Part shown: piece by piece, positions 43,708-52,479 of the stretch
Layout of the letters: each line of letters begins with the position of its first letter
How positions within the stretch are numbered: the stretch's first letter is position 1
From: Candidatus Hydrogenedentota bacterium
Lineage (GTDB): Bacteria > Hydrogenedentota > Hydrogenedentia > Hydrogenedentales > CAITNO01
Length of the DNA stretch: 64,000 nt
Direction of reading: 5' to 3'
NCBI GenBank assembly: GCA_012730045.1
Contig: JAAYBR010000082.1
Span: 1 to 64,000 of the forward strand
Translations under genes and position numbers: made by a program
Notes under the pieces: generated by a model
The model's input: only the letters and a program-made list of their open reading frames with translations
What the model was told of the DNA's origin: nothing
Database searches by the model: none

Positions 43708-45312
43708 ATGTCTGTTGATATGACCGTCATCATGGCGCCCAAGTGGGATTCGCGGGAGCCGGCCTGTTCAACCGCCTACATCTGCCAGCGCCTCCGGTCT
43801 CTCGGACGCACTGTGCAGTATTTGGACTACAACATCGAGTTGTATGACCTGTGCCGCCGTCTGGGCATGGGGGACTTCTGGACGGATCCGGTCTACCATC
43901 AGGGGTGGGTCAAGGGGGCGTTCCATTTCCTGGCCGCGTTTCTCGACATTGACCGCATCCAGGGCGACGTGGTCGGCTTCTCAGTCACCGCCACCAACCG
44001 GGACATGTCCCTGCTCCTCGCGCGCATGGTCCGCGAGCGTTTCCCCCGAAAGAAGATCATCTTCGGCGGGTATGCCCTCTACTATCACACAGACCTGTAC
44101 GGTGTCTCCCCCGGAGCCGTTGACGCCATTTGCACGGGCGAGGGCGAGCACACGCTGCGCGACGTCCTTGACCGCGACTTCAAGAACCTGGAGGAGGTGC
44201 CAGGCCTTTACCTGCCGGACGGCGACTGCTGGCGTCTCACCGTGCCCCGGCCGCTGATCCAGAACCTCGACGAGATCGCCTGGCCCACTTTCGAGGAGGT
44301 GGACCTGGGGCTCTATGATGTCCCGGACCTTCCGCTGATGGGGAGCCGGGGGTGCATCGGGAGGCGCGTCTTCTGCAATGACCGGCACAGAACGCCGGGA
44401 TACCGCACTCGATCCGCCGTGCACCAGGTGGACGAACTCCAGTTCCTGAAGGAGCGCTATGGCACCCAGTTCTTCATCTACAACGACCCGCTGATGAACG
44501 GAAGCGTAAAGGTCCTGGAGGAGAAGGCGGACGAGATTCTCCGTCGCAGACTGTCGGTGGACTACGGCGGAAACCTCATGGCGCACCGCGGCATGAAGCC
44601 CGAGCTGTTCCAGAAGCTCCGGCGCTCCGGCCTCACCGTGGCCATCATCGGCCTCGAGAGCGGGTGCAACGAGACGCTCAAGGGCATGAACAAGTACCAC
44701 ACCGAGAGGTCGGCAGAAGAGTTTCTGCGGAACTGCCGCGATGCGGGCATGCGCGTCGAGATCAACATCATCGTGGGGTTCCCCACGGAGACGGAGGAGC
44801 ATTTCCAGGCGACCATCCGTTTCATCGAGAGAAACCGAGACAACATTGACTGCGTGGTCAGCGTGGCCACCTTTCATGTCGCCTATTCCGACCTGTGGAA
44901 ACGCAGGGGGGAGTTCGGCATTGAAATGAAGGACCATGGACACACCGCCGAATGGCGCACCCGGGACGGCCGCAACACCCTTGACATTCGGCTGGACCGG
45001 CTGAAGCGTTTCCAGTCCCGAATGCTCGAGTTGGGGCTTTCCCTGGACCGGAGCGACAGAGCGGTGGAGCAGAAGTGCCCCAATGTCAGCAGGCGCTTCC
45101 TGAAGACGTATCTCGACAGCCTGGGGGAAGAGGGGATACTCTCCGCAGAAGAGCGGAACCGGGCGCCGTTCGTTGGGCGCGACATCCAGGGACGGCTGTG
45201 GCGGGCGTCCCTGGCAAAGGCGCTGGGCAAGATCGGCGTTCTCGACCAGGCTGTCTGGATGAAGAATACGCTGGCGAGGGTGTTGAGGGGGGCGGGAACT
45301 GGGGCCGAATAG
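43708..45312 (+). CDS. B12-binding radical SAM protein with a missing cluster cysteine
   Basis: The 534-residue product has an N-terminal cobalamin-binding-like Rossmann domain (residues about 1-150, with IIFGGYALYYHTDLYG and CTGEGEHTL) and a radical SAM barrel (about 200-440, with IIGLESGCNETLKGMNKY and INIIVGFPTETEEHF). The cluster motif CxxxCxxC reads C216-IGR-R220-VF-C223: the middle Cys is Arg (CGC at 44365-44367, one T-to-C change from TGC). Everything else in the motif, such as GSRGCIGR before and FCND after, is intact. It may therefore be inactive, altered, or a sequence error. GCGGAGGAA precedes the ATG. Substrate is unknown. Confidence 0.85.
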   Translation: MSVDMTVIMAPKWDSREPACSTAYICQRLRSLGRTVQYLDYNIELYDLCRRLGMGDFWTDPVYHQGWVKGAFHFLAAFLDIDRIQGDVVGFSVTATNRDMSLLLARMVRERFPRKKIIFGGYALYYHTDLYGVSPGAVDAICTGEGEHTLRDVLDRDFKNLEEVPGLYLPDGDCWRLTVPRPLIQNLDEIAWPTFEEVDLGLYDVPDLPLMGSRGCIGRRVFCNDRHRTPGYRTRSAVHQVDELQFLKERYGTQFFIYNDPLMNGSVKVLEEKADEILRRRLSVDYGGNLMAHRGMKPELFQKLRRSGLTVAIIGLESGCNETLKGMNKYHTERSAEEFLRNCRDAGMRVEINIIVGFPTETEEHFQATIRFIERNRDNIDCVVSVATFHVAYSDLWKRRGEFGIEMKDHGHTAEWRTRDGRNTLDIRLDRLKRFQSRMLELGLSLDRSDRAVEQKCPNVSRRFLKTYLDSLGEEGILSAEERNRAPFVGRDIQGRLWRASLAKALGKIGVLDQAVWMKNTLARVLRGAGTGAE

Positions 45313-48957: not shown

Positions 48958-50625
48958 ATGATACGGGCCGGGTGGAAACATGGTTTGGCGCTGTGCGCCG
49001 CGCTGCTTCTCCTCTCCGGAGGGCAGGCGGACGGGGAGGGCGAGCCGCTTCCCCGCGCCGTGGTGTGCCCCATTGACCGCGAAATCTCCGACGGGGTGGC
49101 CGTGCTGGTGCGCCGGGCCGTGCAGGAGGAGGCCCCCGGGGCCGCGGCGCTGGTCTTCGTCATTGACACCTTCGGGGGCCGCGTGGACTCGGCCATTGAG
49201 ATCACCGAGCACATTCTCGACGCCCCCTGCCCCACGATCGCGTACGTCACGGGCAAGGGGGCCATCTCGGCGGGCGCGCTGATCGCCTACGCCTGCGATT
49301 ACATCGTCATGGCGCCGGGCACCAACATCGGCGCCTCCACCCCCTTCATGCCCGCCGCCGAGGCGGCGGACCAGGTGAACGAGAAGTCCATGTCCTTTCT
49401 GCGCGCGAAATACCGCGCCCTCGGGGAACTGAAGGGGCACAACCCGCTGCTCGGGGAGGCGATGGTGGACGAGGACATCGAGCTTTTCGGCATTCCACAA
49501 GAAGGGCGGGAGATGCTGATTGTCAAGGTGAGCGGAGGAAAAGTGGTGGAGGGCATCCGAGAGGATGCGGAGCGGAAGCCCGGATCGGCGCTGGACGTCG
49601 TTTTTGAGGCGCTGGACGAGGAGGGGAACCAGGGCCTTCAGGACCTGAAGGAACTGGTGAAAAATGCCGCAGGGGACATCCCGGGGAAGACGGAAGACGT
49701 CCCGACAGGAGCAACGGAGGCCGCGCCAAAAGCTAAAAGCGTGGCTCCGCAGCGCGCCGGTCTTCCAGCTGACGCGCGGATAGTGACGGAGGCGGGAAAG
49801 CTTCTGACGCTCACCAGCAGGGAGGCGCTTGAACTGGGGCTGGCTGATGCCGTCCTGGACTCCCCGGAGGAGGCTCTGGCGCAATACGACCTGCGCACCC
49901 TGCCGCCGGAGCGCATGGCCATGCGCTGGGACGAAGGCCTCTTCACCTTCCTCACGTCGCCCCTGATCGCTGGTCTCCTCCTCATGTGCGGCGTCGCCGG
50001 GATCTATCTCGAGTTCAAGACGCCCGGCATCGGCTGGGCGGGGTTCATCGGCGCGGCGTGCCTGGCCATTTACTTCGGGTCCCGGCTCGTGGTCGGCATG
50101 GCGGACTGGATGGACGTCGCGCTGGTGCTCGCCGGGTTCGCCCTGCTGGCCGCAGAGATATTTGTCATTCCCGGCTTTGGCCTCGCCGGGGCGGGCGGCA
50201 TTGTGTGCCTCCTTCTGGGCGTCTACCTCTCCCTGACCCGGGTGACCATCCCCGAGTATACGTGGGACTTCATGCGCCTCACGGACGCCGGCGTCTCCAT
50301 CATGGTGGCCGCGGGGACCTTCCTGCTGTTCATGCTGTTCATGTGGAAGGTGTTTCCGTCGACCCCCGTGGCGCGCGGGCTGATGCAGTCGCACGCCCAG
50401 CTGGCCGAGGCGGGCTACGCCGTTCAGACCCATGCGGACGCCGAGGCCGCCCTCGGCCTGACGGGCGTGGCCGTTTCCATGCTGCGTCCGGCGGGACGCG
50501 GGCGGTTCGGCAGCCGCACACTGGACGTGATGACCCGGGGCGAGTTTGTGGAGCCGGGACGGAACATTGTGGTGATCCAGGTCGAAGGAAACCGCTACGT
50601 GGTGCGGGAACAGGAGGAGTCGTAG
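48958..50625 (+). CDS. Long NfeD protein with ClpP-like protease domain
   Basis: The 555-residue product has a signal peptide, a ClpP-like serine protease domain (residues about 30-250 with TFGGRVDSAIEI, KGAISAGALIAYACD containing the candidate catalytic Ser, and a downstream Lys-rich helix SFLRAKYR), an inserted low-complexity stretch, TSREALELGLAD, about five membrane helices, and a C-terminal OB-fold NfeD domain (LRPAGRGRFGSRTLDV, VEPGRNIVVIQVEG). Long NfeD proteins accompany flotillins or stomatins in many bacteria. It starts a five-gene string and is followed 1 nt later by a small gene. Confidence 0.9.
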   Translation: MIRAGWKHGLALCAALLLLSGGQADGEGEPLPRAVVCPIDREISDGVAVLVRRAVQEEAPGAAALVFVIDTFGGRVDSAIEITEHILDAPCPTIAYVTGKGAISAGALIAYACDYIVMAPGTNIGASTPFMPAAEAADQVNEKSMSFLRAKYRALGELKGHNPLLGEAMVDEDIELFGIPQEGREMLIVKVSGGKVVEGIREDAERKPGSALDVVFEALDEEGNQGLQDLKELVKNAAGDIPGKTEDVPTGATEAAPKAKSVAPQRAGLPADARIVTEAGKLLTLTSREALELGLADAVLDSPEEALAQYDLRTLPPERMAMRWDEGLFTFLTSPLIAGLLLMCGVAGIYLEFKTPGIGWAGFIGAACLAIYFGSRLVVGMADWMDVALVLAGFALLAAEIFVIPGFGLAGAGGIVCLLLGVYLSLTRVTIPEYTWDFMRLTDAGVSIMVAAGTFLLFMLFMWKVFPSTPVARGLMQSHAQLAEAGYAVQTHADAEAALGLTGVAVSMLRPAGRGRFGSRTLDVMTRGEFVEPGRNIVVIQVEGNRYVVREQEES

Positions 50626-50626
50626 G

Positions 50627-50941
50627 ATGGAAACGGGCAACGACACTTTTCAGGCGCCGCTGCACATGCTGCGCCAGCTGCTGAAGGAGATGGAGATCGT
50701 CTCCTCGCAGGGCTCCGGGTATTACACCTGCGTCCCCTTCGCCAGCCGCTACAACAAGATGCTCGGTCTTGCCAGGACGCTTCCAGGCCTGGACTCCGCG
50801 CTGCTCGGCACCTTTTCCCCCCTGGAAGAGGGTGACCCCAAGGACCCGGCGGACAAGAGCCGCGTGCTCCTGGGCATACGTGTGGAGATTTCGCAGTTGA
50901 TCGCGCTGCTGGAATCGTGCGGCGGGGGGCAGAAGAAATGA
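50627..50941 (+). CDS. Small uncharacterised protein between two NfeD genes
   Basis: The 104-residue product has no membrane segment or signal. It contains amphipathic helical stretches (PLHMLRQLLKEMEIVSSQG, and a C-terminal RVEISQLIALLESCGGG) and a central Pro/Gly-rich part. CAGGAGGAGTCGTAGG precedes the ATG at 50627, so translation should be efficient. It starts 1 nt after one nfeD stop and its own stop overlaps the next nfeD start. I do not recognise it, and its fixed place inside the operon suggests a soluble accessory role. Confidence 0.75.
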   Translation: METGNDTFQAPLHMLRQLLKEMEIVSSQGSGYYTCVPFASRYNKMLGLARTLPGLDSALLGTFSPLEEGDPKDPADKSRVLLGIRVEISQLIALLESCGGGQKK

Positions 50942-51417
50942 TCGGATGGGTCCTTCTCTTCTTTATCGCCGGCATGTGCATGATCCTCGCGGAGTTTCTC
51001 CTTCCAGGCGGCGTGCTGGGCATGTTGGGCGCCCTGCTTGTCCTCACGAGCGGCGCCCTTGGCGTATACGCCTACCCCGAGCAGGCCGTCCTCATCATCT
51101 TTGGCGAGTTGACAGGCGCCGCCCTCTCCGTTATTCTGGGGTTCTGGGTGCTCACGCGCACCAAGGCGCTGAAGCTCCTCACCCTGCAGACATCGCAGCG
51201 GGCGGAGGACGGGTTTGTGAGCGCCGTAAGCGACCTGTCGCTGGTGGGCAGGGAGGGCGTCTCCGTCACCGCCCTGCGCCCCGCGGGCGTGATCCGCGTG
51301 GGGGACGAGCGGCTGGACGCCGTCACCGACGGCGGGTTTGTGGAGGAGGGGCACCCGGTGCGCGTGCTCGAGGTGCACGGAAGCCGGATTGTCGTTGAGG
51401 CCGTTGACAGTCAATAA
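50938..51417 (+). CDS. Short NfeD membrane protein
   Basis: The 159-residue protein has about three membrane helices (residues about 1-20, 25-45 and 55-80; MIGWVLLFFIAGMCMILAEF, LLPGGVLGMLGALLVLTSG) and a C-terminal OB-fold (VGREGVSVTALRPAGVIRVG, VEEGHPVRVLEVHGSRIVVE). This is the short NfeD type, which pairs with flotillins. The ATG at 50938 overlaps the upstream stop (ATGA). Together with the long NfeD and FloA it makes a membrane microdomain module. Confidence 0.88.
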   Translation: MIGWVLLFFIAGMCMILAEFLLPGGVLGMLGALLVLTSGALGVYAYPEQAVLIIFGELTGAALSVILGFWVLTRTKALKLLTLQTSQRAEDGFVSAVSDLSLVGREGVSVTALRPAGVIRVGDERLDAVTDGGFVEEGHPVRVLEVHGSRIVVEAVDSQ

Positions 51418-51462
51418 CGCGCCCCCGCGGGCGCCGGGAACCGAACTGAAAGGAACAGGAAA

Positions 51463-52479
51463 ATGGGTCCGTTTGTAGCCGTGCTGGGGCTTTTCGTGGC
51501 GGTCGCCGTGCTGGTCATGTTTGTGGTCTTCATCTCCTACGTGCGCCTGTGGCTGCGCGCCTGGCTGTCAGAGGCCAGCGTCAGCTGGCTCAGCCTGGTC
51601 GGCATGAGCCTGCGCAAGGTCAACCCCGCCGTGATCGTGGACAGCCGGATCATGGCCGTGAAGGCGGGCCTTAACATCAGCACCAACGAGCTGGAAACGC
51701 ACTACCTGGCCGGCGGCAACGTGGTCAAGGTGGTGCAGGCGCTTATCGCCGCGAACAAGGCCAACATTGACCTCTCGTTCCAGCAGGCGACCGCCATTGA
51801 CCTGGCGGGACGCGATGTGCTGGACGCGGTGCAGACCTCCGTCCGCCCGAAGGTCATTGACTGCCCCGACCCCTCCAAGGGCTCGCCCGTCGTCGCCGCC
51901 GTGGCCATGGACGGCATCCAGCTCAAGGCAAAGGCCCGGGTCACCGTGCGCACCAACATCAAGCGCCTGGTCGGCGGCGCCACCGAGGAGACGATCATCG
52001 CCCGCGTCGGCGAGGGCATCGTCACCACCATCGGCTCCTCGCAGTCGCACAAGAAGGTGCTGGAGAATCCCGACTCCATCTCCAAGACCGTGCTGGCGCG
52101 CGGCCTGGACGCGGGCACGGCCTTTGAGATTCTCTCGATCGACATTGCCGACGTGGACGTGGGCGAGAACATCGGCGCCGACCTCCAGATCAAGCAGGCG
52201 GAGGCGGACAAGCAGATCGCCCAGGCCCGCGCCGAGGAGCGCCGCGCCATGGCACGCGCCCGCGAGGCCGAAATGGTCGCCATGGTCCAGGAAATGCGCG
52301 CCCGCGTCGTGGAGGCGGAGGCCGAGGTGCCCAAGGCCATGGCCGAGGCCTTCAAGAAGGGCAACCTGGGCATCATGGACTACTACCGCATGAAGAACAT
52401 CGTGGCCGACACCGGCATGCGCGAGTCCATCTCCCGCGCGGAGGGCGGCACGGAGGCGGGCGATCCCGTTCAGCAGTAA
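51463..52479 (+). CDS. floA: Flotillin-like protein FloA
   Basis: The 338-residue protein belongs to the UPF0365/FloA family: an N-terminal membrane hairpin, [65 protein letters not shown], and a long Ala/Glu-rich coiled coil ([20 protein letters not shown]), then [14 protein letters not shown]. FloA scaffolds lipid-ordered membrane regions. AAAGGAACAGGAAA precedes the ATG. It follows two nfeD genes, the usual arrangement. Confidence 0.95.

Follow-up and report, generated by a model that had tools for sequence, protein, structure and literature searches.

Arginine at the Middle Cluster-Cysteine Position of a Predicted Cobalamin-Binding Radical SAM Protein from a Candidatus Hydrogenedentota Genome

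The Locus and the Encoded Protein

The gene described in this report lies in a window of 64,000 nucleotides, the whole stretch of DNA that was analyzed, from a metagenome-assembled genome of Candidatus Hydrogenedentota (4.46 Mb, 155 contigs, 97.5% complete, contamination listed as 0.05%). The open reading frame starts with the ATG at 43708, closes with a stop codon that ends at 45312, and encodes a B12-binding/radical SAM (rSAM) protein. The features of the gene are collected in Table 1.

Table 1. Features of the B12-binding/rSAM gene, in window coordinates
Feature	Coordinates	Strand	Remarks
CDS, B12-binding/rSAM protein	43708..45312	+	534 aa, frame open throughout
B12-binding domain PF02310	43957..44166	+	residues 84-153; Pfam 32.2 bits, cut-off 32.1 (marginal)
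C174	44227..44229	+	private; Gly in other close-family members
Radical SAM domain PF04055	44344..44826	+	residues 213-373; Pfam 61.4 bits, cut-off 29.5
C216	44353..44355	+	TGC; first cluster cysteine, intact
R220	44365..44367	+	CGC; Cys in every other aligned family member
C223	44374..44376	+	TGC; third cluster cysteine, intact
R281	44548..44550	+	private; Gly in other close-family members
R344	44737..44739	+	private; His in other close-family members

The three cysteines of radical SAM enzymes bind a [4Fe-4S] cluster that coordinates and reductively cleaves SAM (PMC11834973). Members of the superfamily carry these residues as C-x3-C-x2-C or a spacing variant of it, a feature that the window protein lacks by virtue of the arginine at position 220. 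Residues 212-225 read GSRGCIGRRVFCND, and the motif is C216-IGR-R220-VF-C223 within GSRGC-IGR-R-VF-C-ND, where R219 is encoded by AGG. The first-pass annotation had described the pattern as C216-x3-R220-x2-C223 with CGC in place of the middle cysteine codon, and both the coordinates and the codon were found to be right when re-read from the sequence. Since the Pfam rSAM domain is placed at residues 213-373, the position of the motif is no chance match. No replacement cysteine is present within the motif of the window protein next to the lost ligand, and there is no conserved neighboring cysteine.

The rSAM barrel is recognized both by the PF04055 profile and by a structural model that matches rSAM structures. 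The N-terminal B12-binding domain is recognized by the marginal PF02310 score and by the top Foldseek matches, which are B12/rSAM enzymes. The AlphaFold model, built from 14 sequences, has a mean pLDDT of 87.4 and a pTM of 0.83, and its best matches in the PDB are cobalamin-type rSAM enzymes and proteins of related fold, namely MgmA, OxsB, TsrM, CysS, and AprD4. MgmA (9ccb), OxsB (5ul4), TsrM (6wte), and CysS (9n1d) possess, like the window model, an N-terminal Rossmann-like B12-binding domain and an rSAM barrel, and were matched with E values of about 1e-18 to 1e-19 and a probability of 1.00. They are, however, only 13-16% identical to the window protein, in which their middle cluster cysteine is an arginine. 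The same two-domain fold is found in AprD4 (6fd2), a radical SAM diol dehydratase whose TM-scores of 0.63 (query) and 0.73 (target) are among the highest of the Foldseek list, but the identity is ~15% and the cluster motif is broken in the window protein. The case of AprD4 demonstrates that fold alone does not determine the reaction. Some cobalamin-dependent rSAM enzymes are not methyltransferases (PMC9692996).

A sequence search of the PDB with the window protein gave no match. The top NCBIfam profiles were rSAM_ocin_1 (101.6 bits), HpnJ (88.7 bits), and the BchE type (85.7 bits), and membership in these families was rejected because all scores fall far below the curated cut-offs of 281.85, 577.6, and 481.35, respectively. 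Going by the Pfam domains and the predicted structure, the window protein is a putative radical SAM enzyme of the cobalamin-binding type.

The neighboring genes (an oxidoreductase, a sugar isomerase-like protein, and an arabinofuranosidase) form no coherent pathway from which a function might be read. Further along the window, at 48958-52476, two genes for NfeD-type membrane proteins (48958-50622 and 50917-51414) are followed by flotillin-like FloA in a syntenic and ordinary NfeD-FloA cluster.

Position 220 among Relatives

Position 220 was compared in an alignment of 18 sequences from Hydrogenedentota, Omnitrophota, Deltaproteobacteria, and others, including members from other phyla that are roughly 30% identical. 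Cysteine is found in all 17 of the other sequences and arginine in the window protein only, which rules out a conserved non-catalytic subfamily or a clade feature. The Hydrogenedentota B12/rSAM subfamily (L037, L038, L039/L117, L002, and L010-L013) is homologous to the window protein over its full length at 44-95% identity, and every member other than the window copy has C-x3-C-x2-C. The named relatives of the window protein come from Candidatus Hydrogenedentota metagenome genomes.

One same-genus genome was available for comparison. Its ortholog (L008/L037) is syntenic, 95% identical in amino acid sequence, and has TGC, a single transition away from CGC, at the codon of R220. Within the source genome, a paralog (L002) with 67% identity retains the motif CIGRCVFC; it is flanked by thiE-like and dnaG-like genes, as judged by eye, which offer no clue to a pathway. 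Thus, the question posed by the first-pass annotation, whether C or R is found at residue 220 of homologs, was answered by cysteine in 17 of 17 others and in the same-genus ortholog. Among the sequences compared, Arg220 is private to the source genome.

Homologs were retrieved with two patterns, one of which admitted only Cys or Arg at position 220, while the other lay outside the motif. The few members of the 144 homologous frames that depart from CX3CX2C are three-cysteine spacing variants (CX4CX2C and CX7CX2C) and one fragment. Among the 30 best rSAM loci of the source genome, the window gene is the only one that lacks the complete three-cysteine motif; the other 29 retain it, and a genome-wide quality problem that strikes rSAM motifs is thereby ruled out.

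Some variation in the motif was observed elsewhere. A B12-type rSAM gene of the minus strand (L004/L121, G000:C32:5248-6171) has C-x4-C-x2-C spacing (CPYGKCRFC), which is a family variant and not an error since it is also found in the relatives L022 and L028 from other genomes. In an Omnitrophota family member (L048), the motif CSNCCLFC contains one cysteine more, directly before the middle ligand. Two distant homologous frames (L088 and L090) have C-x7-C-x2-C cluster motifs of the CWWGAKSHCVFC type.

Other Private Changes and Divergence

The window protein differs at 4 of the 119 columns that are invariant across the other seven close-family proteins, and the outcome was unchanged with nine sequences. 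The four changes are G174C, C220R, G281R, and H344R, with BLOSUM62 scores of -3, -3, -2, and 0, respectively. C220 is universal in the 18-sequence set, whereas G174, G281, and H344 are conserved in the close family only. The same-genus ortholog differs at invariant columns only in its GTG start. In control genes of the window (the Gfo/Idh/MocA oxidoreductase, FloA, and MurJ), only mild departures were counted for the source genome, 3 among 516 conserved columns; with seven comparison sequences drawn at random, the corresponding value was about 3.7 of 601. The excess in the window protein relative to the control genes has a Fisher p value of 0.026 when C220R is counted and of 0.08 when it is left out; for the 4:0 split of changes between the two tips, p is 0.125. 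The excess of departures at conserved sites is therefore small and suggestive rather than strong.

Relative to the same-genus ortholog, the window gene has a dN of 0.030, a dS of 0.140, and a dN/dS of 0.21, from which it follows that the gene was under constraint for most of its history, until recently. A branch codon model with omega on the window lineage did not separate the two tips, and for the window tip even an omega of 1 came at a cost of only 0.37 log units. The model is uninformative because the outgroups are too distant for synonymous changes to be assigned to either tip.

Explanations for Arg220

The first-pass annotation had proposed that the locus could hold a recently lost enzyme, a deliberate non-catalytic paralog, or a sequencing or assembly error. 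The comparisons above narrow the interpretation to a recent private loss or an error. Loss is favored because three further private changes hit conserved columns, and a conserved non-catalytic paralog finds no support, the change being unshared. We consider it rather probable, though far from settled, that a real missense substitution of Cys220 by Arg was acquired recently, is limited to this species or strain, and has left an inactive or crippled enzyme that has begun to decay. With two of the three thiolates remaining and a bulky, positively charged residue at the site, the [4Fe-4S] cluster would be absent or unstable. Reductive cleavage of SAM would then fail, leaving the protein with little or no catalytic activity. 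The gene would be at an early stage of decay that precedes any frameshift or stop codon, and its loss may be made good by the intact paralog at another locus. Counting against a recent loss are the small size of the excess at conserved sites, the open frame, and a dN/dS well below 1; the last two are expected of an undamaged gene as well.

The main rival is that the metagenome assembly contains a consensus error or has mixed strains; the organism would then have Cys220, and the assembled base would be wrong or represent a minority or mixed allele. We regard this as possible but doubtful. The assembly is a draft of 155 contigs, the named relatives of the lineage are likewise metagenome-assembled, and the change is a single private transition at a site that is otherwise invariant in the alignment. 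However, an error of this kind would also have to account for the three further private substitutions that hit conserved positions of the same gene, when the FloA, MurJ, and oxidoreductase genes of the window have no such radical departures, the motif is complete in the 29 other top rSAM loci, and the listed contamination is 0.05%. The base call is probably correct.

A selected function that dispenses with the canonical third thiolate, either as a B12-binding pseudoenzyme or as an enzyme active through Cys174 or another ligand, is unlikely. The former would have lost radical chemistry and kept a selected role in cobalamin or substrate binding or in regulation. Campylobacter CgdH2, a HemN/HemW-like protein that binds heme and is devoid of coproporphyrinogen dehydrogenase activity, is a loosely related precedent within the superfamily for such a changed role (PMC10320005). 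The open frame, the dN/dS of 0.21, the predicted intact fold (pLDDT 87), and the presence of two copies in the genome are all compatible with it. We nevertheless judge a retained pseudoenzyme to be quite improbable, since the change is found in no other genome compared, including that of the same-genus ortholog, and since the low dN/dS mostly reflects the time before the change and the ancestry shared with the intact ortholog. No direct precedent for a radical SAM pseudoenzyme that has lost its cluster motif was found in the part of the literature consulted.

In a still-working enzyme, the cluster would be coordinated by C216 and C223 together with a replacement ligand, which might be the new Cys174 or a non-thiolate. 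Iron-sulfur clusters with non-cysteine ligands exist in general, and Cys174 was gained on the same lineage as R220. However, Cys174 precedes position 220 by 46 residues and falls in a strand pair predicted ahead of the barrel (167-171 and 174-177), the glycine that it replaced is conserved in the close family only, and we know of no rSAM enzyme with a substitute ligand arranged in this way. The suggestion that another cysteine might stand in for the lost ligand was not borne out by the homologs, which have no conserved neighboring cysteine, and the private C174 shows no sign of a ligand role. A rescued cluster is accordingly very improbable. We found no positive support for either a selected non-catalytic role or a rescued cluster.

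The window protein is probably a damaged representative of a known superfamily and reveals no new mechanism or new kind of enzyme. Because one of the three cluster cysteines is missing, it ought not to be labeled an active radical SAM enzyme, and a Pfam match alone is no ground for doing so. If the base is real, the gene offers a clear view of a radical SAM enzyme shortly after the loss of a cluster ligand. The intact ortholog of the sister species and the intact paralog of the same genome would serve as natural controls and as a comparison pair for the tolerance of cluster-ligand loss.

The dS of the window gene relative to its ortholog L037 (0.14-0.15) is the lowest among the well-supported genes of the syntenic block. 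The other well-supported genes of the block have dS values mostly of 0.3-0.9, with 0.19 for FloA, and the dS of the paralog pair is 0.54. The intergenic DNA that flanks the window gene is diverged between the same-genus genomes. These values may reflect a recent exchange of alleles of the window gene between the two lineages; if this exchange is real, the change from Cys to Arg would be recent too.
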